Shown here one piece after another: positions 11,881-23,149 of a stretch of DNA of 33,561 nucleotides (within the stretch, counting starts at the first letter, position 1; every line of letters starts with the position of its first letter). A program made the position numbers and the translations under genes. The DNA is from Ignavibacteriales bacterium (GTDB taxonomy: Bacteria; Bacteroidota; Ignavibacteria; Ignavibacteriales; Ignavibacteriaceae), in NCBI GenBank assembly GCA_020061465.1, contig JAGUYG010000101.1, forward strand, positions 1-33,561. Reading direction: 5' to 3'. The notes beneath the pieces are model-generated. The model was not told the DNA's origin. It saw only the letters and a program-made list of their open reading frames with translations, and did not search any database.

Positions 11881-13248
11881 TCACTCAACCGGGTGAAGAT
11901 TCAATTCCTTCAAACCGGAGTAAAGCTCATCATCGGTTAATTCATGATCCACAAGCTTTCCGGCAAAGTAATCGCTGTAAGCGCTCATATCAAAGTAACC
12001 GTGTCCGCAAAGGTTAAACAAAATTGTTTTTGACTTTCCTTCCTGCTTTGCTTTTTCGGCTTCTCTAAATACCTGCGCTATGCCGTGCGTTGCTTCGGGA
12101 GCGGGAATGATGCCTTCGGTTCGCGCAAATTTTACACCGGCGTCAAAGCATTCAAGCTGCTGCATTGCCGATGCTTCAATGATTTTATCTTTAAGCAGTT
12201 GGCTCACTATTACGCCGGCACCGTGATACCGCAGTCCGCCTGCGTGGATAGGAGCCGGAACGAATGTATGTCCTAACGTGTACATCGGAAGCAAAGGAGT
12301 AAGTCCTACCGTATCTCCAAAATCATAACGGAATTCTCCTCTGGTAAGCTTTGGACATGAGGCAGGTTCAACGGCAATACATCTGATATTTTTTCCTTCG
12401 GTTAAATTGTATTTTAAGAAGGGAAAAGATATGCCGGCAAAGTTTGAACCTCCGCCGAAAGGCGCAATAACTATATCGGGGAAATCGCCTGCTTTTTCGA
12501 ACTGCTTAACTGCCTCCAATCCGATTACGGTTTGATGCATTAAAACATGGTTAAGTACGCTTCCCAATGAGTATTTTGTGTTGGCGCTTGTAGCAGCTCT
12601 TTCAACAGCTTCCGAGATAGCAATTCCTAAGCTGCCGGGCGAATCAGGATTTGCGGCTAAAATTTTTCTTCCCGATTCTGTTTTATTCGTAGGAGAAGAA
12701 AAAACCTCTGCGCCCCATACATTCATCATCGATTTGCGGTAAGGCTTTTGATCGTAGCTTATCTTTACCATGTAAACTTCAAGTTCCATCCCGAAAGTTT
12801 GACACGCAAAAGCAAGCGCGCTGCCCCACTGACCGGCTCCGGTTTCGGTGGTTAATTTTTTCACCCCCTCTGCTTTGTTATAATAAGCCTGAGCAACTGC
12901 GGTGTTTGGTTTGTGTGAACCGGCGGGACTAACTCCTTCATATTTATAATAAATTTTCGCAGGTGTGTCTAAAAGTTTCTCCAAATTGTATGCGCGGTAC
13001 AGAGGGGTGGGGCGCCACATTTTATATATATCCCGTACTTCTTCGGGAATATCAATCCATCTTTCTTTTGATACTTCTTGTTTAATTAATTCCATCGGGA
13101 ATAACGGCGCTAAATCTTCAGGACCAATAGGCTGTTTTGTTCCCGGATGTAATGGCGGCAGCATAGCATTAGGCATATCAGCCTGTATGTTATACCATTG
13201 TTCGGGAATTTCATTTTCGGACAGTAAAAATTTTTTTGTTTTTTTCAT
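11881..13248 (-). CDS. trpB: tryptophan synthase beta chain, TrpB2 type
   Basis: A 455-residue PLP enzyme of the TrpB2 clade, which is longer than TrpB1 (about 390-400). Signatures are the N-terminal [33 protein letters not shown], the PLP lysine in [23 protein letters not shown], and the phosphate-binding FGGGSNFAG loop. It condenses indole with serine to give tryptophan. TrpB2 often occurs away from the trp operon and without TrpA, as here, and is thought to use free indole or salvage it. It is a single-gene transcription unit on the minus strand with toxin-antitoxin debris downstream. Whether a second TrpB exists in the genome cannot be seen. Confidence 0.93.
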
Positions 13249-15466: not shown

Positions 15467-15759
15467 AACGCCTCCTGATTTATTATTTATTATTGACGAT
15501 TTGAGCCTTGCGATTTTAAATGGGGGCTGCATATTTAAGTTGTGTTTCATATGAACAAACCTAAATAGCAAACGGCAGATAAATTATGTTAACCTGTATG
15601 CTTTGTCAATAATTTTCTGTTATTAAATACAACCATTTGCTAGAAGTGTTGCTGCTGTCACTAAATATTATTGTATTCCTTCTCCATAATTGCACTGGCA
15701 CTTGCACTTTTCTTCAATTTGATATGAAACTCTTTTTTACTTAAGTTTGCTGCGTGAAA
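15467..15759. other. divergent promoter region between the NIPSNAP-like gene and the his leader
   Basis: About 290 bases without a gene. It must contain promoters for both directions. TTGATA at about 15719 followed by a T-rich spacer is a possible -35 for the his operon, but no element is clear enough to call. Confidence 0.35.
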
Positions 15760-15828
15760 ATGAAAAGGCAAATACTAAATATCGAAATACATCATCATCA
15801 CTTATCGGATTTTTATGCCGGCAGGTGA
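15760..15828 (+). CDS. hisL: histidine operon leader peptide
   Basis: A 22-codon frame, too short for ordinary gene calls, with ATG at 15760-15762 (an in-frame GTG lies six bases upstream) and TGA at 15826-15828. Codons 11-14 (15790-15801) are CAT CAT CAT CAC, four histidines in a row; the flanking residues are LNIEI and LSDFYAGR. It ends 70 bases before hisG and is followed by a terminator hairpin, which is the classical arrangement of an attenuation leader. A ribosome stalled on the His codons when charged tRNA-His is scarce would keep the operon on. Confidence 0.88.
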   Translation: MKRQILNIEIHHHHLSDFYAGR

Positions 15829-15880
15829 TGAACTATAATTAATTTTAACCATGCACCCCCGGCAAATGTCGGGGTTTTTT
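15795..15880 (+). promoter_or_regulatory. his operon attenuator (alternative RNA stems)
   Basis: Three competing pairings are visible. Stem 1:2 is TCATCAC (15795-15801, inside the His codons) with GTGATGA (15825-15831). The antiterminator 2:3 is TGCCGG (15816-15821) with CCGGCA (15859-15864), extended by GGTG (15824-15827) with CACC (15854-15857). The terminator 3:4 is CCCCGGC (15857-15863) with GTCGGGG (15868-15874), loop AAAT, followed by TTTTTT. Segment CCGGC is shared, so antiterminator and terminator cannot coexist. Stalling at the His codons would block 1:2 and favour 2:3. Confidence 0.85.
15857..15880 (+). terminator. rho-independent terminator of the his attenuator
   Basis: A 7-bp stem (one G-U pair) with a four-base loop and six T residues directly after. 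It lies between the leader stop and the hisG ribosome-binding site AAAGGAG. Confidence 0.85.
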
Positions 15881-15898
15881 GTTTTAAAGGAGAATTAA

Positions 15899-16765
15899 AT
15901 GAATGGTAATTTAAAGCTGGCAATACAAAAAAAAGGAAGGCTGACAGATAAATCGGTTGAGCTGTTAAAACTTTGCGGACTTGATTTCGAAAATTATTCC
16001 GAGAGACTTTTTGTAACAGCACGCAACTTCCCGCTCGATATACTTTTTCTGCGGGATGACGATATACCCGAATATGTTCAGGACGGTGTTGCCGATGTCG
16101 GAATAGTCGGCGAAAATGTTATTTATGAAAAACAAACTGATACACCGGTTCTAGAAAAATTAGGTTTCGGCAGATGCAGCCTGTTGATTGCACATCCCGA
16201 AGGCAAAGAATTAAAAACGCTTTCAGACATTAACGGTAAAACAATAGCCACTACCTACCCTGTTATTCTAAATGATTTCCTTGTGAAGAATAATATTAAT
16301 GCAAAGGTTATTGAGCTGAGCGGTTCGGTTGAAATTGCGCCGTCATTAGGTGTAGCAAATTTGATTTGTGATATCGTCTCAACCGGCAATACTTTGATGC
16401 TTAACAAGCTGAAAAAATCTTTTAAAGTGTTTGACTCGCAGGCAGTATTAATTTCCGCTAAAGATGTAAGCGGTAACAAAAAGAAAAATGAAATTTTAGA
16501 TTCATTATTAAAACGAATTCGTTCAGTACTGAATGCGCGAAGATCAAAATATTTGATGATGAATATTCCTAAAGAAGCGCTGCCGAGAATAAGTGAAATT
16601 ATTCCATCTCTTAAAAGTCCGACAGTTCTTCCGCTTGCCGATGAAAACTCGCTTGCGGTTCATGCAGTAATTCCGGCAGATCGATTTTGGGAAATTGTTG
16701 ATGATTTAAAAAGCGCCGGCGCATCCGGTATTCTTCTTTTACCAATAGAAAATATGATATTATGA
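15899..16765 (+). CDS. hisG: ATP phosphoribosyltransferase, long form
   Basis: A 288-residue protein, so the long form with a C-terminal ACT-like regulatory domain; it does not need HisZ. It catalyses the first step of histidine synthesis, joining ATP and PRPP. N-terminal LKLAIQKKGRLTDKSVELLK and DVGIVGENV, and the PRPP-loop-like ICDIVSTGNTL, match HisG. The last 75 residues (MNIPKEALPRISEIIPSLKS onward) are the feedback-binding domain. AAAGGAG lies eight bases before the ATG, just downstream of the attenuator. It ends in an ATGA overlap with hisD. Histidine inhibition of the long form is known for the family. Confidence 0.95.
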   Translation: MNGNLKLAIQKKGRLTDKSVELLKLCGLDFENYSERLFVTARNFPLDILFLRDDDIPEYVQDGVADVGIVGENVIYEKQTDTPVLEKLGFGRCSLLIAHPEGKELKTLSDINGKTIATTYPVILNDFLVKNNINAKVIELSGSVEIAPSLGVANLICDIVSTGNTLMLNKLKKSFKVFDSQAVLISAKDVSGNKKKNEILDSLLKRIRSVLNARRSKYLMMNIPKEALPRISEIIPSLKSPTVLPLADENSLAVHAVIPADRFWEIVDDLKSAGASGILLLPIENMIL

Positions 16766-18048
16766 AAAAATATTATTACAAGAATTTAAATACCGAAATT
16801 CGAAAAGCGCTGCTGAGAAGACCCTCGATAAACTTTGATGGTATATTTAATGTCGTAAAACCGATTATTAATGATGTAAAACAAAACGGCTTACAAGCGG
16901 CATTAAAATATGCAAAAGAGTTTGACGGCTTTGGCACAACCGAAGTAAAAGTTTCGCCTGCAGAATTTGACGAAGCTGAAGAAAATTTAGATGATGAAAT
17001 AAAACAAGCGCTAAAAACAGCAGCGGCTAATATCGAAAAATTTCACATTGAACAAATTCTCAAAAGTTACTCGGTTGAAACAATGCCCGGAATAATTTGC
17101 TCAAGAGAGTTTAGAGCAATTGAAAATGTTGGACTTTATGTACCTGGCGGCAGTGCGGTGCTGCCCTCAACAATGCTGATGCTTGGCATACCTGCTAAAA
17201 TTGCCGGCTGCAAAAGAGTTGTGGTTTGTTCACCTGCAAAGAATGGAAGAATAAATTATCCGCTGTTGTATGCAGCTAAGCTTTGCGGCATTGATGAGTT
17301 TTATAAGTTGGGAGGTGCACAGGCTATTGCTCTGATGGCTTTAGGTGATGTGACTATTCCAAAGGTTGATAAAATTTTTGGACCCGGTAATCAGTTCGTT
17401 ACTGCAGCAAAAATGCTTATCAGTATTGATCCGGACGGATGTGCAATCGATATGCCTGCCGGTCCGAGTGAATTGTTAATCATTGCAGATGAAACAGCAA
17501 ACCCGGCATTTGTAGCTGCCGATCTTTTATCGCAGGCAGAACATGGCGAAGATTCGCAGGTGGTTTTGGTTTCAACATCTGAAAAATTTATTGAACAGGT
17601 AAACAGTGAGATAGCCGGGCAAATCCAAATGCTGCCGCGAAAAGCTATTGCTGAAAAATCTTTTGGCGGTTCTTTTATTTTGATTACAGAAAATATTGAA
17701 CAGGCAATCGAGTTTAGCAATGAATACGCACCTGAACATTTAATTATTAATCTTGAAAATTCTGAAAGCAATCGTGATAAAATTATTAACGCCGGTTCGG
17801 TGTTCTTTGGACAGTATTCTCCCGAAAGCGTGGGTGACTATGCTTCCGGAACGAATCATTCGCTGCCTACTTCCGGTTATGCGAAATCATTCGGAGGAGT
17901 AACGGTTGAATCATTTATGAAGTCTATTACATTTCAACATTTAACTAAAGAAGGATTGAAGCAAATTTCCTCAGCAGTAGAAACAATAGCTGAAGCGGAA
18001 GGTTTGGAAGCCCACAAGAACGCAGTAACGATTCGATTTAAAGAATAA
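16762..18048 (+). CDS. hisD: histidinol dehydrogenase
   Basis: A 428-residue protein, the usual length. It oxidises histidinol to histidine in two NAD-dependent steps with zinc. Visible family motifs are ENVGLYVPGGSAVLPSTMLM, the FYKLGGAQAIALMA run, KIFGPGNQFVTAAK, DMPAGPSELLI, LLSQAEHGEDSQV, and the late YAPEHLIIN and SGTNHSLPTSG segments that bind substrate and zinc. It overlaps hisG by four bases and is followed after 72 bases by hisC. No unusual change seen. Confidence 0.96.
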   Translation: MKKYYYKNLNTEIRKALLRRPSINFDGIFNVVKPIINDVKQNGLQAALKYAKEFDGFGTTEVKVSPAEFDEAEENLDDEIKQALKTAAANIEKFHIEQILKSYSVETMPGIICSREFRAIENVGLYVPGGSAVLPSTMLMLGIPAKIAGCKRVVVCSPAKNGRINYPLLYAAKLCGIDEFYKLGGAQAIALMALGDVTIPKVDKIFGPGNQFVTAAKMLISIDPDGCAIDMPAGPSELLIIADETANPAFVAADLLSQAEHGEDSQVVLVSTSEKFIEQVNSEIAGQIQMLPRKAIAEKSFGGSFILITENIEQAIEFSNEYAPEHLIINLENSESNRDKIINAGSVFFGQYSPESVGDYASGTNHSLPTSGYAKSFGGVTVESFMKSITFQHLTKEGLKQISSAVETIAEAEGLEAHKNAVTIRFKE

Positions 18049-18120
18049 GTTATTTATAAGCTCTGTGAGTATTGATTATTTTTGATTGATTAACAGTTGG
18101 ATTAATTCAAAAGAAATAAT

Positions 18121-19170
18121 ATGGACATTAAATCTTTAGTACGAAAAAATATACTCGAACTTAAACCGTATACATCAGCACGTGATGAGTACAGGTTAGG
18201 CATTCTTTTGGACGCGAATGAAAATAGTTTTGGTTCAACTTTTACCGCTATTGACGGATTGAGCTTAAACCGTTATCCCGATCCACATCAAAATGATTTG
18301 CGTAAGTTAGTTGGGAAATACTTTTCCATCCCGCCGGAGAATCTATTTTTTGGTGTCGGTTCAGATGAAATAATTGATTTGCTTATAAGAATTTTCTGCG
18401 AACCTCAAAAGGATACTGCTTTGATACCGGAACCCACTTACGGTATGTATAAAGTTTCGTGCGATATAAATAATGTTCATACTATTAATGTTTTATTGAA
18501 TGACAAATTTCAAATAGATTTTGAAGCGATTGAAAAAAATTATGCTGAAAATGTTAAAATGATTTTCCTTTGTTCGCCGAATAATCCCACCGGAAATCTT
18601 TTAATCAAAAATGAGATTCTTACATTATGTAAAAGGTATAATACTATTGTAGTAGTTGATGAAGCTTATATAGATTTTGCGGAAGACGGAACAGTTATTA
18701 ATGAAGTAAAAGATTATCCCAATCTTGTTGTGCTGAGAACATTTTCGAAGGCGTGGGGTTTAGCGGGAATTCGTCTAGGCTTTTGTGCTGCTAATGAAGA
18801 AATAATAAAACTTCTTTTTAAAGTTAAAGCGCCTTATAATATCAATACACTAACAAGATTTGCCCTTGAGCAGGCGATTAAAAATAACGAGATAAAAAAT
18901 ACATTCGTTAAGAAAATCATTAAGGAACGTGACAGACTAAAGCATTTATTAGAAACTCTTCCTGGAGTTATAGAGGTATTCAATTCCGATGCAAATTTTT
19001 TATTATTCCGATGTGCTGATCCTAAGGGAGTACAAAAGAAGCTTGCTTCAGAAAGAATAATTATACGCGATAGAAGCACCCAGCCAAAACTTGAGGGGTG
19101 TCTGAGGATATCTATCGGAACAGAAGCAGAAAATGATGAACTTTGGGATGCGCTTAGAAAAATTCTTTAA
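18121..19170 (+). CDS. hisC: histidinol-phosphate aminotransferase
   Basis: A 349-residue fold-type I PLP enzyme converting imidazole-acetol phosphate and glutamate to histidinol phosphate. It shows LDANENSFGS, RYPDPHQNDL, FGVGSDEIIDLLIR, LCSPNNPTGN, VVVDEAYIDF, and the PLP lysine in RTFSKAWGLAGIRLG, as expected for HisC. The 72-base gap from hisD has no terminator. Downstream comes an inverted-repeat element before hisB, so transcription must pass through that element for the operon to act as one unit. Confidence 0.95.
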   Translation: MDIKSLVRKNILELKPYTSARDEYRLGILLDANENSFGSTFTAIDGLSLNRYPDPHQNDLRKLVGKYFSIPPENLFFGVGSDEIIDLLIRIFCEPQKDTALIPEPTYGMYKVSCDINNVHTINVLLNDKFQIDFEAIEKNYAENVKMIFLCSPNNPTGNLLIKNEILTLCKRYNTIVVVDEAYIDFAEDGTVINEVKDYPNLVVLRTFSKAWGLAGIRLGFCAANEEIIKLLFKVKAPYNINTLTRFALEQAIKNNEIKNTFVKKIIKERDRLKHLLETLPGVIEVFNSDANFLLFRCADPKGVQKKLASERIIIRDRSTQPKLEGCLRISIGTEAENDELWDALRKIL

Positions 19171-19533
19171 GAATTATTCGATAAGAAATCAAACAATACA
19201 ATAGTAAAATTTATTAAATCATGTTACGCAGAAATTATCGTATATGCGATAAACTCAACCCCCCACGGGGATGTCTCAAAAGTCTAATATTGTCATTTCG
19301 ACTCCGAATACTTTTCCAAAGTCCAAAGGATCCTCGGAGAACCTACGGTCGGAGGAGAAATCTTATTTTGAATTAAGAACGCAGAAAGATCATTCGGAAA
19401 AGATTTCTCCTCACTAAGTTCGTCGAAATGACAGGTACGATACAGCTCCTGAGGGGGATTAGTTCGAGCGTTTTGCGTAAGGTGAGTTATTAAATCATTA
19501 TTCACAACTAACACAATCAAAAACTGTTAAGAA
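19171..19533. repeat. 363-base gap in the his operon filled by a nested inverted-repeat element (19291-19433 core)
   Basis: The outer arms are TGTCATTTCGAC (19291-19302) and GTCGAAATGACA (19422-19433), a perfect 12 bp. The inner arms are GAGGAGAAATCTT (19352-19364) and AAGATTTCTCCTC (19400-19412), a perfect 13 bp. Other small palindromes lie between. The layout is that of a dispersed palindromic/MITE-like repeat, as known from Bacteroidota genomes. It also contains CCAAAGGATC, related to the motif inserted in higA/higB. A long foldback RNA here could affect expression of the downstream his genes. Confidence 0.7.
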
Positions 19534-20424
19534 ATGAAAAACATATTCATTGATTCAAAATTTTTCGGTTTGCAATTGCCGCTTTCGCAAGGATTATTAA
19601 GCGGATTAAAAAAACTTTCCGCAATGGAATTTAATATTTATACTCAATTAAATGAGAATCAAAACTCTGAAATAATTAATAAGATTTTACGGTTAGAAAA
19701 TATTCATCTGATAGATGGTAAACCGGACGATGAATTTATTTTAATAGCAGCCGGTAAGACGAATAAAAAAAACTCCATCTCAGTGGTAGAAAAAGGTTCG
19801 GTTAAAACATTTGAAGAAGCGGTTTCGGACATCATTAAAAAGCAAAGGTCTTCTTCTATTACAAGAAAGACGAATGAAACGGATATCAAAATAAAAGTTG
19901 AGTTAGACGGAAGCGGTTATTCAGATATAAAAACCGGAATTGGATTTTTTGATCACATGTTAGAGCAGATAGCAAGACATGCAAACATCAACCTATATCT
20001 TGCTGTAAAAGGAGATTTGCACGTAGACGAGCATCATACCGTTGAAGATACTGGAATTGCCCTGGGTACTGCAATAAATGAAGCCCTGGGAAGCAAAAGA
20101 GGAATAAAAAGATACGGCTTCTTTCTGCCAATGGATGATGCGGCAGCGCAGTGTGCAGTTGATTTGGGCGGAAGAGTATATCTAAACTTCAAATGCAAAT
20201 TTAAAAGGGAATTTGTCGGTGAATTTCCTACTGAACTTACAGAAGAATTTTTTAGAGGAATTGCATCGGGAATGAAAGCTAACATTTACATAAGGGCAAC
20301 GGGAAAAAACGATCATCATAAAATCGAAGCAATATTTAAATCATTTGCTAAATCATTAAATGAAGCTTGCCGGCTTGATGAAAGAAGCACCGGAACGCTT
20401 CCAAGTACAAAGGGGATTATATGA
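19534..20424 (+). CDS. hisB: imidazoleglycerol-phosphate dehydratase with an extra N-terminal domain
   Basis: A 296-residue protein. Residues about 105-296 are a complete dehydratase: GFFDHMLEQIARH, DEHHTVEDTGIALG, the FRGIASGMKANIYI segment, NDHHKIEAIFKSFAKSL, and the C-terminal STGTLPSTKG. The metal-binding His clusters are intact. It converts IGP to imidazole-acetol phosphate. Residues 1-104 are unexplained: KNIFID, then GLLSGLKKLSAMEFNIYTQL, loosely recall the first strand and helix of the HAD phosphatase domain of bifunctional HisB, but there is no DxDxT motif and it is about 60 residues short. It may be a degenerate phosphatase remnant. The stop overlaps hisH by four bases. Confidence 0.93.
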   Translation: MKNIFIDSKFFGLQLPLSQGLLSGLKKLSAMEFNIYTQLNENQNSEIINKILRLENIHLIDGKPDDEFILIAAGKTNKKNSISVVEKGSVKTFEEAVSDIIKKQRSSSITRKTNETDIKIKVELDGSGYSDIKTGIGFFDHMLEQIARHANINLYLAVKGDLHVDEHHTVEDTGIALGTAINEALGSKRGIKRYGFFLPMDDAAAQCAVDLGGRVYLNFKCKFKREFVGEFPTELTEEFFRGIASGMKANIYIRATGKNDHHKIEAIFKSFAKSLNEACRLDERSTGTLPSTKGII

Positions 20425-21005
20425 TTGCCGTTATAAATTACGGTGCCGGAAATGTTGCATCGGTTGCCAACGCACTTGCCGAGTTAAAGCAGGATTACAT
20501 TATAACCGATAACGAGTTTGAAATATGTGATGCTAATAAGGTAATTTTCCCGGGTGTAGGCGAAGCATCTTTTGCGGTTAAGCAATTGCACAAACTAAAT
20601 TTATTTACCGTGCTGCGGATCGTCAAAAAGCCGATGCTCGGTATTTGTCTTGGTCTGCAACTAATGGCAGATTTTTCTGAAGAGGGGAATGTAACTTGCC
20701 TGGGAATTTTCCCCGGCAGATCGATAAAGTTTGATAACAAGCTCGTTAAAGTTCCTCACATGGGATGGAACTCAATGGAAATCGTAAAGGATAGCAAGCT
20801 TTTTAATGGAATAAAAAACGGCGAGCGCTTTTACTTTGCCCACTCCTATTATCTGCCCGAAACTGAATATACCACCGCGCTTTCGAATAATAATGTTAAA
20901 TTTACTGCAGCGATGGAAAAGAATAATTACTACGGCGTTCAGTTTCACCCGGAAAAATCCGGCGATGCCGGTCTTCAATTAATTAAAAATTTTGTGATGC
21001 TATGA
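20421..21005 (+). CDS. hisH: imidazole glycerol phosphate synthase, glutaminase subunit
   Basis: A 194-residue class I glutamine amidotransferase. It has the oxyanion strand VIFPGVGEASFAV, the nucleophile cysteine in MLGICLGLQLM, and the His/Glu of the triad in YGVQFHPEKSG. It supplies ammonia to HisF. Starts at an ATG overlapping the hisB stop and overlaps hisA by four bases, so translational coupling is likely along the whole block. Confidence 0.95.
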   Translation: MIAVINYGAGNVASVANALAELKQDYIITDNEFEICDANKVIFPGVGEASFAVKQLHKLNLFTVLRIVKKPMLGICLGLQLMADFSEEGNVTCLGIFPGRSIKFDNKLVKVPHMGWNSMEIVKDSKLFNGIKNGERFYFAHSYYLPETEYTTALSNNNVKFTAAMEKNNYYGVQFHPEKSGDAGLQLIKNFVML

Positions 21006-21721
21006 TAATAATACCCGCAATAGATATTTACGAGAATAAAGTTGTAAGACTTACAAAGGGAAGTTTCGATACAGTTACTTTTTATAAAAATACTCCGCTT
21101 CAGCGCGCAAAAGAATTTGAGGCTTCGGGCTTTACTCAAATTCATGTAGTAGATTTAACCGGATCCAAGACAGGAAAATTTTCTTCACTCGGAACTCTAA
21201 GCGAAATTAAAAAGGAAACTTCACTTATAGTTCAGTTCGGCGGAGGGATAAGAGATTTTAAAACTGCAAAACAAGTATTCGATGCCGGAGCCGATTTTGC
21301 CATAATCGGTTCGCTTGCAATTAAAAACAGGACTGAATTCGAAGCGGTAATTAATGCAAATACACCGGGAAAAATTATTGTGGCTATTGATGTTCTTAAT
21401 GAAAAAATTCACATAAGCGGATGGACGGAAACCACGGAGATTTCGCTTAAAAGCCATATAGATTACTGCACTTCTAAAGGAATTAAGAAATTTCTTTGCA
21501 CCGATATTTCTAAAGACGGTATGCTTGCCGGAACTAATATCGAACTATATGAAAAGATATTAGATCAATTCCCAGACATACAATTAATTGCTTCGGGAGG
21601 TATAAAAGATATTGATGAAGTAATTGCTTTAAAAAAACTAAATCCCTATGCCGTTGTAATAGGCAAAGCTATTTATGAAGAAAAAATTAATTTGAAGGAG
21701 TTAGCATCACTTGCTGTGTAA
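21002..21721 (+). CDS. hisA: ProFAR isomerase
   Basis: A 239-residue beta/alpha barrel. IIPAIDIYENKVVRLTKG with the catalytic Asp, the phosphate loop VQFGGGIRD, and the second catalytic Asp in LCTDISKDGML (Thr-Asp-x-x-x-Asp-Gly) are typical HisA. It isomerises the aminoaldose ProFAR to PRFAR for HisF. It overlaps both neighbours (hisH by 4 bases, hisF by 11). Confidence 0.95.
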   Translation: MIIIPAIDIYENKVVRLTKGSFDTVTFYKNTPLQRAKEFEASGFTQIHVVDLTGSKTGKFSSLGTLSEIKKETSLIVQFGGGIRDFKTAKQVFDAGADFAIIGSLAIKNRTEFEAVINANTPGKIIVAIDVLNEKIHISGWTETTEISLKSHIDYCTSKGIKKFLCTDISKDGMLAGTNIELYEKILDQFPDIQLIASGGIKDIDEVIALKKLNPYAVVIGKAIYEEKINLKELASLAV

Positions 21722-22466
21722 AAGAATTATTCCCTGTTTAGATGTAAAAGACGGACGGGTTGTAAAAGGAACTAACTTTGTAAATCTTGTTGATGCCGGC
21801 TCACCGATTGAATTAGCAGCGCGCTACTCAAATGAAAGCGCAGATGAGCTTGTCTTTTTAGATATAACCGCTTCAGCAGAAAAGAGAAAAACATTAGTTC
21901 ACCTTGTAGAAGAAGTAGCAAAGGTATTGAGGATTCCCTTTACCGTTGGAGGAGGTATTTCTGAATTAGATGATATTGATGCCCTTCTAAAAGCGGGCGC
22001 CGATAAAGTATCATTAAATTCTGCAATTGTTAAGAATCCTAATTTGATAAGTGAAGCGGCACGGCAATTCGGCAGCCAGGCAATAGTAGCCGCAATTGAT
22101 GTCAAGCATACCGGAAATGAATACAAGGTCTTCATCAAAGGAGGAAGGGAAGAAACAGATTTAATAGGAATTGAATGGTGTAAGCAGGCAGCAGAGCTTG
22201 GTGCCGGAGAGATATTGCTGACATCGATGGATAAGGACGGAACAAAATCAGGTTACGATATAAAATTTTTGAAGGAGCTTACATCGGCTGTTACAATTCC
22301 GGTTATCGCATCGGGTGGTGCAGGGAAAAAAGAAGATTTTTTGGAAGCTTTTAATGAGGCGGACGTTGATGCCTGTCTTGCAGCCAGCTTATTCCATTAT
22401 AATATTTTGCCGATAAAAGAATTGAAAGAATATTTGGATGCCTCAGGTGTTATTGTAAGAATTTAA
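21711..22466 (+). CDS. hisF: imidazole glycerol phosphate synthase, cyclase subunit
   Basis: A 251-residue barrel. LCKRIIPCLDVKDGRVVKGT (catalytic Asp), FTVGGGISELDD, LLTSMDKDGTKSGYD (second Asp) and IPVIASGGAGK match HisF. Start is a TTG at 21711; AAGGAG about ten bases upstream, inside the end of hisA, supports it, since no ATG occurs early. It combines PRFAR and ammonia from HisH into IGP and AICAR. Confidence 0.95.
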   Translation: MLCKRIIPCLDVKDGRVVKGTNFVNLVDAGSPIELAARYSNESADELVFLDITASAEKRKTLVHLVEEVAKVLRIPFTVGGGISELDDIDALLKAGADKVSLNSAIVKNPNLISEAARQFGSQAIVAAIDVKHTGNEYKVFIKGGREETDLIGIEWCKQAAELGAGEILLTSMDKDGTKSGYDIKFLKELTSAVTIPVIASGGAGKKEDFLEAFNEADVDACLAASLFHYNILPIKELKEYLDASGVIVRI

Positions 22467-22534
22467 TATTTCATCAATTATACTTTCGTAAAATCGAACA
22501 TTATATTTTAATCATCTCTTTACTAAGTTTTATT

Positions 22535-23149
22535 ATGATAAACAATTCACTCATTAACATATTGAACTTTAACAAACTCAGCGGATTGATTCCTGCTGTT
22601 GTAGTAGATGCAAATAACGATGCTGTCCTTATGTTAGGTTTTATGAATAAAGAGGCTGTAGTAAAAACCATCGAAACTAAGCTGGTTACATTTTACAGCA
22701 GAAGCAGAAATACACTATGGACTAAAGGCGAAACATCCGGAAATTATTTGCATCTTGTTGATATCAAACCCGACTGCGATAACGATGCGCTGCTTGTATT
22801 TGCCGATCCATTAGGGAATACGTGTCACACGGGTAATTATTCTTGTTTTGGTATATCAAAAAAAACATCGCTGACTTTTTTAACCGATCTTTTTGAATTA
22901 ATTAAAAGCAGAAAAACCGAACTGCCGGAAAAATCTTACACAACAAAATTGTTTAAAGAAGGCAGTAATAGAATAATTCAAAAATTAGGTGAGGAGGCTA
23001 TCGAAACTGTTATAGCCGCAAAGAATAGAAACAAGGATGAAATAATAAATGAAACCTCCGACTTGTTGTATCACTTATTCGTTATGCTCGCCGATCAGGA
23101 AATTGAGTTAGAACAAATCGTAAAAAATTTAGCCGGAAGGGCAAAGTAG
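22535..23149 (+). CDS. hisI: bifunctional phosphoribosyl-AMP cyclohydrolase / phosphoribosyl-ATP pyrophosphatase
   Basis: A 204-residue fusion (HisIE). The N-terminal HisI domain has LMLGFMNKEAV, FYSRSRNTLWTKGETSGN, and the zinc/metal run DCDNDALLV with the CHTG motif. The C-terminal HisE helical domain from about residue 115 shows EEAIETVIAAKN and ETSDLLYHLFVMLAD. It performs steps two and three of the pathway. It is the last gene of the operon, 68 bases after hisF, followed by an unrelated gene without a clear terminator. Confidence 0.95.
   Translation: MINNSLINILNFNKLSGLIPAVVVDANNDAVLMLGFMNKEAVVKTIETKLVTFYSRSRNTLWTKGETSGNYLHLVDIKPDCDNDALLVFADPLGNTCHTGNYSCFGISKKTSLTFLTDLFELIKSRKTELPEKSYTTKLFKEGSNRIIQKLGEEAIETVIAAKNRNKDEIINETSDLLYHLFVMLADQEIELEQIVKNLAGRAK

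Follow-up and report, generated by a model that had tools for sequence, protein, structure and literature searches.

Histidine leaders are listed as Rfam family RF00514 in the available part of PMC3766115, and a His-dependent regulation upstream of hisG is named for the gamma-proteobacteria in the excerpt of PMC4833913. According to the accessible text of PMC2965389, leader peptides were extended from Proteobacteria and Actinobacteria to Firmicutes. In Flavobacterium psychrophilum, the accessible part of PMC9723704 reports clues to leader-peptide attenuation upstream of amino-acid operons, together with a structured element 5' of hisG, also present in other Flavobacteriaceae, that has no Rfam match. 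Bacteroid-trp RNA (RF01692) was presented as a candidate structured RNA of Bacteroidetes (PMC2864571, in part). An earlier note on the DNA described here, made from its letters, had remarked that ribosome-mediated attenuation is well documented mainly in Proteobacteria and Firmicutes-type genomes; leaders are indeed reported in those groups, but the remark was too narrow, as the available portions of two sources add Actinobacteria (PMC2965389) and the clues from Flavobacteriaceae (PMC9723704). Among the open-licence papers searched, none was found on leader-peptide attenuation in Ignavibacteria, PMC9723704 being the closest. Because the Flavobacteriaceae hisG element and the attenuation clues are already described, as far as the accessible text of that source goes, the kind of regulator is known and the lineage is only partly new. 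A 2010 study by Lopatovskaya et al. may treat Bacteroidetes/Chlorobi, which would lower the novelty further.

The locus lies upstream of hisG in a window of 33,561 nucleotides, the whole stretch of DNA analysed, from an Ignavibacteriales bacterium (contig JAGUYG010000101.1). Its features are listed below.

15718-15749, plus strand: putative promoter, TTTG-20 nt-TAAGTTTG (Bacteroidota sigma-A type), ending 10 nt before the leader ATG
15760-15828, plus strand: leader peptide ORF MKRQILNIEIHHHHLSDFYAGR, with ATG at 15760, stop codon TGA at 15826-15828 and 22 sense codons
15790-15801, plus strand: control codons CAT CAT CAT CAC, four consecutive His codons read in the sequence
15795-15803, plus strand: segment 1, pairing in predicted folds with 15823-15831 if ribosome-free
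15816-15827, plus strand: segment 2, the antiterminator 5' arm TGCCGG..GGTG, overlapping the leader stop codon
15854-15864, plus strand: segment 3, the antiterminator 3' arm CACC..CCGGCA, common to the terminator
15857-15880, plus strand: intrinsic terminator CCCCGGC-AAAT-GTCGGGG with T6 (segments 3 and 4), from a hairpin scan
15899-16765, plus strand: hisG, ATP phosphoribosyltransferase, first gene of the putative operon (NCBIfam TIGR00070, 190.1 bits, cut-off 75.75)

The earlier note had claimed a 22-codon leader with four His codons and, after it, two mutually exclusive stems, the second ending in six Ts. The leader was recovered to the base, and the stems with their T run were found at the same place, just before hisG. 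In the antiterminator, TGCCGG (15816-15821) pairs with CCGGCA (15859-15864) and GGTG (15824-15827) with CACC (15854-15857). The terminator arms CCCCGGC (15857-15863) and GTCGGGG (15868-15874) are followed by T6 (15875-15880), and a terminator scan returned the same hairpin with 7 pairs, 6 of them G-C. The run of four His codons occurred once in the window, against 0.02 expected. The fold of the window leader RNA had a z of -2.14, with 7 of 200 shuffles equally good, a modest result taken alone. In the window fold, a prediction for this one locus, segments 1 and 2 formed a protector helix of 9 pairs, and the pairing of segment 1 with 15823-15831 would hide part of the antiterminator arm.

Taken together, the observed anatomy, conservation, covariation of both helices and spacing indicate that the locus is very probably a ribosome-mediated transcription attenuator, by which the his operon would respond to charged His-tRNA. 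This mechanism, proposed in the earlier note, is the best-supported reading: the His codons fit the product of the operon, the helices are mutually exclusive and covary, and the spacing suits a ribosome stall. From the sequence, we infer promoter use, termination, ribosome stalling, the order of folding and the histidine response as follows. RNA polymerase would start just upstream of 15760, and the leader would be translated by a ribosome. With ample His-tRNA, the ribosome would reach the stop codon at 15826 and cover segment 2 (15816-15827), whereupon segments 3 and 4 would form the terminator and transcription would end near 15880. With scarce His-tRNA, the ribosome would wait at 15790-15801 and segment 2 would stay free to pair with segment 3 ahead of the synthesis of segment 4; no terminator would form, and hisG to hisIE would be transcribed. 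If the leader were untranslated, segments 1 and 2 could pair and the terminator would form. Since attenuation needs close coupling of ribosome and polymerase, such coupling in Ignavibacteria is a testable expectation.

The arrangement was looked for in close relatives. The search covered 59 genomes including the window's own, 39 of which matched the window HisG. A first set of 39 loci comprised the best 30 of these 39 HisG-matching genomes and 9 further loci from named records; with 8 of the 9 lower-ranked HisG genomes, it made up a full close set of 47 (own genome included). Genome G033 lies outside the 47 and is represented by its covariance-model match alone. The named records held 77 loci with HisG relatives, of which 63 from Sphingobacterium and 1 from Parapedobacter make 64; the top HisG match was an Ignavibacteria MAG at 81% identity (L032), and the other close records were labelled Ignavibacteriales, Melioribacteraceae or plain Bacteroidetes bacterium. 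By these HisG relatives, the genome belongs in Ignavibacteria. Three of the loci were duplicates (L032, L036 and L038 of L003, L004 and L005), and four were left out, L086, L087 and L103 for short upstream DNA and L171 with 240 bases.

A leader was called on at least 3 His within 6 codons, and an intrinsic terminator was then sought before hisG. Both were present in 39/39 loci of the first set, including L005, which misses the first leader pattern and has 3 His in 6 codons. In the close set as a whole, 44/47 relatives had both features, and 46/47 had the His-rich leader when it was counted alone. Relatives without the His codons or without the terminator, which the earlier note had named as evidence that would speak against an attenuator, were thus few (3/47), and all three came from the 8 lower-ranked genomes: G002 and G007 had a His-rich leader without a detected terminator, and G024 had neither, while G054, G028, G027, G050 and G020 had both. 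Dinucleotide shuffles of the 39 stretches gave a leader in 10/780 and a leader with terminator in 0/780; set against 44/47 relatives with both, this argues that the arrangement is not due to chance. When the same detector was run on 28 of the window's 31 ORFs, both features were found solely at hisG, and one other upstream region had a His-rich ORF without a terminator. The leader peptides of the relatives have little in common beyond His.

As a separate observation, 20/59 genomes had no match to the window HisG, as did 13 of the 51 genomes with a completeness of 90% or more and a contamination of 5% or less. These missing matches suggest that histidine synthesis may be absent in part of the lineage.

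The position of segment 2 relative to the translating ribosome was determined in the 39 loci. In a search that ignored the stop codon and ran from the last clustered His codon up to the vicinity of the terminator, the best segment-2 helix was centred no more than 12 nt before or 6.5 nt after the first base of the stop codon in 38/39 loci; the exception was L024, with a midpoint 14.5 nt after that base. In a second search, limited to the stretch from 25 nt upstream to 20 nt downstream of the stop codon, the segment-2 core started 12-27 nt past the last His codon of the cluster, and 18-24 nt past it in 35/39 loci. With an assumed ribosome footprint of about 14 nt beyond the A-site codon, the core would be free in 39/39 loci when the ribosome is at the first His codon and in 38/39 when it is at the last. 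With a ribosome at the stop codon, it would be covered in 39/39 under the same footprint, a count that follows in part from the search itself, which looked for the core only close to the stop. The reading frame of the core was 0 in 28 loci, 1 in 5 and 2 in 1, and the core was untranslated in 5; since several frames and untranslated cores occur, it is the RNA and not the peptide that is under selection.

Covariation upstream of hisG, a check proposed in the earlier note, was examined in alignment A2 of 38 rows, from which L029 was omitted as a near-duplicate of L027, and both helices were found to covary. The counts that follow are inflated by kinship between the rows. In the antiterminator, 87.1% of cells were paired, compared to 81.7 +/- 1.0 in column shuffles (0/500 as high), and standard pairing fell to 24-49% when the partner was slid by 1-3 columns. 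Cells changed on both sides numbered 16, compared to 7.1 +/- 1.9 in shuffles (0/500 as high). Column pair 156-208 had C-G in 21 rows, U-A in 7 and U-G in 5, and column pair 154-210 had U-A in 18, C-G in 7, U-G in 3 and A-U in 1. Two other antiterminator counts were not above those in shuffles, namely pairs changed on both sides (3; 316/500 as high) and further pair types (10; 89/500 as high), and the outer pair was intact in just 19/36 cells. In the terminator, 88.4% of cells were paired and 6 pairs were changed on both sides (0/500 shuffles as high). Mutual exclusion is supported, since segment 3 belongs to both helices and each of them covaries. Conservation in the alignment is concentrated in the His codons and both helices.

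Folding of single loci was less discriminating. The segment 2:3 helices were only moderately better than shuffles (in the window, 14/200 as good), and a locus paired better with its own partner than in the median cross-locus pairing in 26/39 loci, a modest difference that is expected because the core GYCGG/CCGRC is common to many loci. The consensus fold of the alignment displayed the terminator alone, as one nested structure cannot hold both helices. Speaking against the attenuator in its simple form, minimum-energy folds retained the terminator even when the RNA was masked to 15804 or 15813, the assumed ribosome front at the first or fourth His codon. For 15816-15874, the fold energies were -17.8 kcal/mol with the terminator and -16.2 kcal/mol with the antiterminator; as the terminator fold is the lower in energy, antitermination would have to win by forming first.

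The specificity of the element was determined with a covariance model, R1, run on the 59 genomes. The 35 best matches (E <=4.8e-8) were all directly upstream of hisG, and with a weaker match in G020 the model covered 36/39 genomes having hisG; the other 31 matches (E 7.7e-6 to 9.6e-4) were located elsewhere. Of the 59 searched genomes, 29 had contributed rows to R1, so that 10 hisG genomes were independent of it. Seven of these 10 were matched, one of them (G009) having a leader nearly identical to an R1 row, and G002, G007 and G024 were not.

At gathering score, no Rfam family matched the window, the trpE leader of the same genome (L227), L006 or L026. A lax Rfam scan of 15600-16000, with E up to 10, gave 13 matches. 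One was a weak alignment to RF00514 (His_leader) over 15789-15884, whose 19.7 bits (gathering 49, E 0.57) do not make the window leader a member; another, below threshold, was to the sRNA rli38, covering 15749-15882 at 32.9 bits (gathering 49, E 0.0069). The latter, with the ability of leader peptides to act also in trans (PMC7298713, in its accessible part), would suit a hairpin that ends an independent small RNA or short protein gene in which the His codons are incidental. Such a gene is very improbable, as a leader with terminator precedes hisG in 44/47 relatives whose peptides share little but His, and it is as RNA, read in several frames, that segment 2 is conserved. It is more improbable still, to a degree that borders on the negligible, that histidine or tRNA is sensed directly, be it by a T-box, by a riboswitch or by a leader that binds a protein. 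T-boxes upstream of hisS do control his genes elsewhere, according to the available text of PMC2965389; in the window, by contrast, no Rfam family, the T-box included, reached its gathering score, no T-box was among the 13 lax matches at 15600-16000, and the alignment columns that are well conserved belong to the His codons and the two helices.

Transcription starting downstream of 15880, which the earlier note had held would tell against attenuation, would have little room, with hisG at 15899, and the putative promoter lies before the leader. The TTTG-20-TAAGTTTG pattern occurred 3 times in the window against 1.42 expected, and 18/100 shuffles had at least 3, which is not significant alone. 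The promoter consensus of Bacteroidota is TAnnTTTG in the accessible part of PMC9723704. Across the 39 loci, the best box of this type within 90 nt upstream of the called leader start agreed at no fewer than 5 of its 6 positions in 37/39, with a mean combined score of 7.5 compared to 6.0 (sd 0.6) in shuffles, and its distance to the start codon had a median of 11 nt (range 3-55). If transcription starts a few nt past the box, the 5' untranslated region of the window leader would be very short. No plus-strand sigma-70-like site was listed between 14900 and 16400.

The genes that follow hisG in the window are listed below.

16762-18048, plus strand: hisD (NCBIfam)
18121-19170, plus strand: hisC (NCBIfam)
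19534-20424, plus strand: hisB (NCBIfam)
20421-21005, plus strand: hisH (NCBIfam)
21002-21721, plus strand: hisA (NCBIfam)
21711-22466, plus strand: hisF (NCBIfam)
22535-23149, plus strand: hisIE (NCBIfam)

From gene order and strand, the his cluster (15899-23149) is probably co-transcribed. The N-terminal 100 or so residues of HisB precede its family match, which starts at residue 103 for NCBIfam and at 134 for Pfam IGPD; these residues had no Pfam match of their own, and the gene (19534-20424) did not match the phosphatase part of the bifunctional HisB model. The 363-nt gap between hisC and hisB (19171-19533) contains inverted repeats TGTCATTTCGAC / GTCGAAATGACA, with arms at 19291-19302 and 19422-19433, and an inner 13-nt inverted pair. 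Against the genome, 19240-19500 gave 25 additional matches, complete or partial; it is a MITE-like repeat lying within the his cluster. Near the cluster, a TrpB-like PLP enzyme is encoded on the minus strand at 11881-13248 (NF009057, 741 bits, cut-off 366).

Elsewhere in the genome, trpE is preceded by a Trp-rich leader, MKKFTGTYYNTNLFFSQYFWWWFSVPYSMTR (YFWWWF), and by a strong T-tailed hairpin, a parallel that favours the attenuator reading of the his leader. The position of the trpE leader is as follows.

G000:C41:51560-52300, minus strand: trpE leader L227, Trp-rich leader (WWW) and terminator

An ilv attenuator was also sought upstream of ilvB, where a hydrophobic short ORF was present with no terminator.

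A wider survey found hisG in 40/119 genomes of the class and 252/296 of the phylum, and the upstream regions of 108 distinct genomes were covered, in families labelled f1-f57. A His-rich leader with terminator was called in 41 genomes, a leader without terminator in 26 and neither in 41; the last group includes one miscount, G053. Locus L119, called leaderless because the contig end shifted the offset, is the same as L019 and has a leader. The leaders of the survey, all called by one criterion, are putative. Leaders of this type were seen before hisG in many of the other Bacteroidota families covered, though not in all. No His-rich leader was found in 15 families (36 loci), namely f5, f6, f7, f10, f14, f19 and f24 of the same class outside the order (23 loci), and f28, f29, f31, f33, f38, f44, f47 and f56. 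The absence from the 23 loci of the same class counts against the attenuator reading. Outside f1-f3, an antiterminator arm near the leader end was tested in 23 loci with leader and terminator, and at most 10/200 shuffles were as good in 11/23 of them. Examples are CTCAAGCG/CGTTTGAG in f35 (L199) and GGGCAGGTGGTGAGGCGTTT/AAGAGGTTTACCACTTGCCC in f39 (L208); at L203 (101/200) and L209 (90/200), the arm was at chance level.

Family f37 had a His-rich leader without a detected terminator in 14/14 loci (L140-L145, L149, L150, L152, L154, L159, L204-L206), and a hairpin at L204 had no T tail directly after it. The f37 spacer before hisG was G-depleted and C/U-rich (mean 24.9% C, 5.3% G), whereas the ratio of C to G was near 1 in the 41 terminator-bearing loci. 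In 11/14 f37 loci and the f57 locus, 12-81 of about 1390 windows of the own locus had a C minus G as high as the spacer, a skew that is unusual but not unique within the locus. The 80 nt before the leader were more skewed than the spacer at the f57 locus and nearly as skewed at L150 of f37. The f37 leaders perhaps have a Rho-dependent output, which is a lead and not a result, since the spacer skew is not unique and the DNA before the leader can be comparably skewed. Two f37 loci, L142 and L206, have a GTG start 4 nt after a TATATTTG box, as in leaderless mRNA.

The Sphingobacterium set, with one Parapedobacter, was scanned in 62 loci (L044-L108 minus L086, L087 and L103), and all 62 had a His-rich leader before hisG. 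Terminators were called only twice, inside the leader at L069 and upstream of it at L100. In most of 10 loci inspected, a hairpin spanned CATCGCCA..GGCGAT within the leader, with TTCTACGTGAAGC or a variant after it.

Since some Bacteroidota keep a His-rich leader without a detected intrinsic terminator, such a leader can work with another output. The same observation would suit translational control in the window, with leader and helices governing access to the hisG start and not termination. Such control is very unlikely at this locus, because the window hairpin has 6/7 G-C pairs followed by T6, and the region before the hisG start (AAAGGAG, ATG at 15899) lies outside both helices; transcription attenuation remains the preferred reading here. 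For the phylum, we tentatively suggest, as a possibility open to considerable doubt, that Bacteroidota keep the His-rich leader and switch its output among an intrinsic terminator, Rho (f37) and the intra-leader hairpin of Sphingobacterium. If true, one and the same sensor would be linked to several modes of stopping in a single phylum, and the variation in output would be a natural experiment on attenuator evolution. In its own lineage, known mostly from metagenome assemblies, the element offers an annotatable regulator for his operons and a covarying RNA that is missing from Rfam.

Among the described systems, Bacteroid-trp RNA (RF01692), which we take to be a Trp-operon leader, differs from the window leader in its amino acid, Trp and not His, and the trp leader of this genome (L227) fell below every Rfam gathering score. 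The hisG element of Flavobacteriaceae (PMC9723704) is, like the one described here, structured, upstream of hisG and without an Rfam family; it belongs to another lineage, and the likeness is one of description, the peptide and helices being absent from the accessible text of that source. The hisS/hisZ leaders of bacilli share a short ORF with a His stretch in the 5' UTR and a predicted attenuator, whereas they control genes of the hisS family, in Firmicutes (PMC2965389, in its available part). Compared to enterobacterial RF00514, the window leader fails membership by sequence and structure (19.7 vs 49 bits), and is alike in its His-rich leader before hisG, its alternative helices and its T tail.
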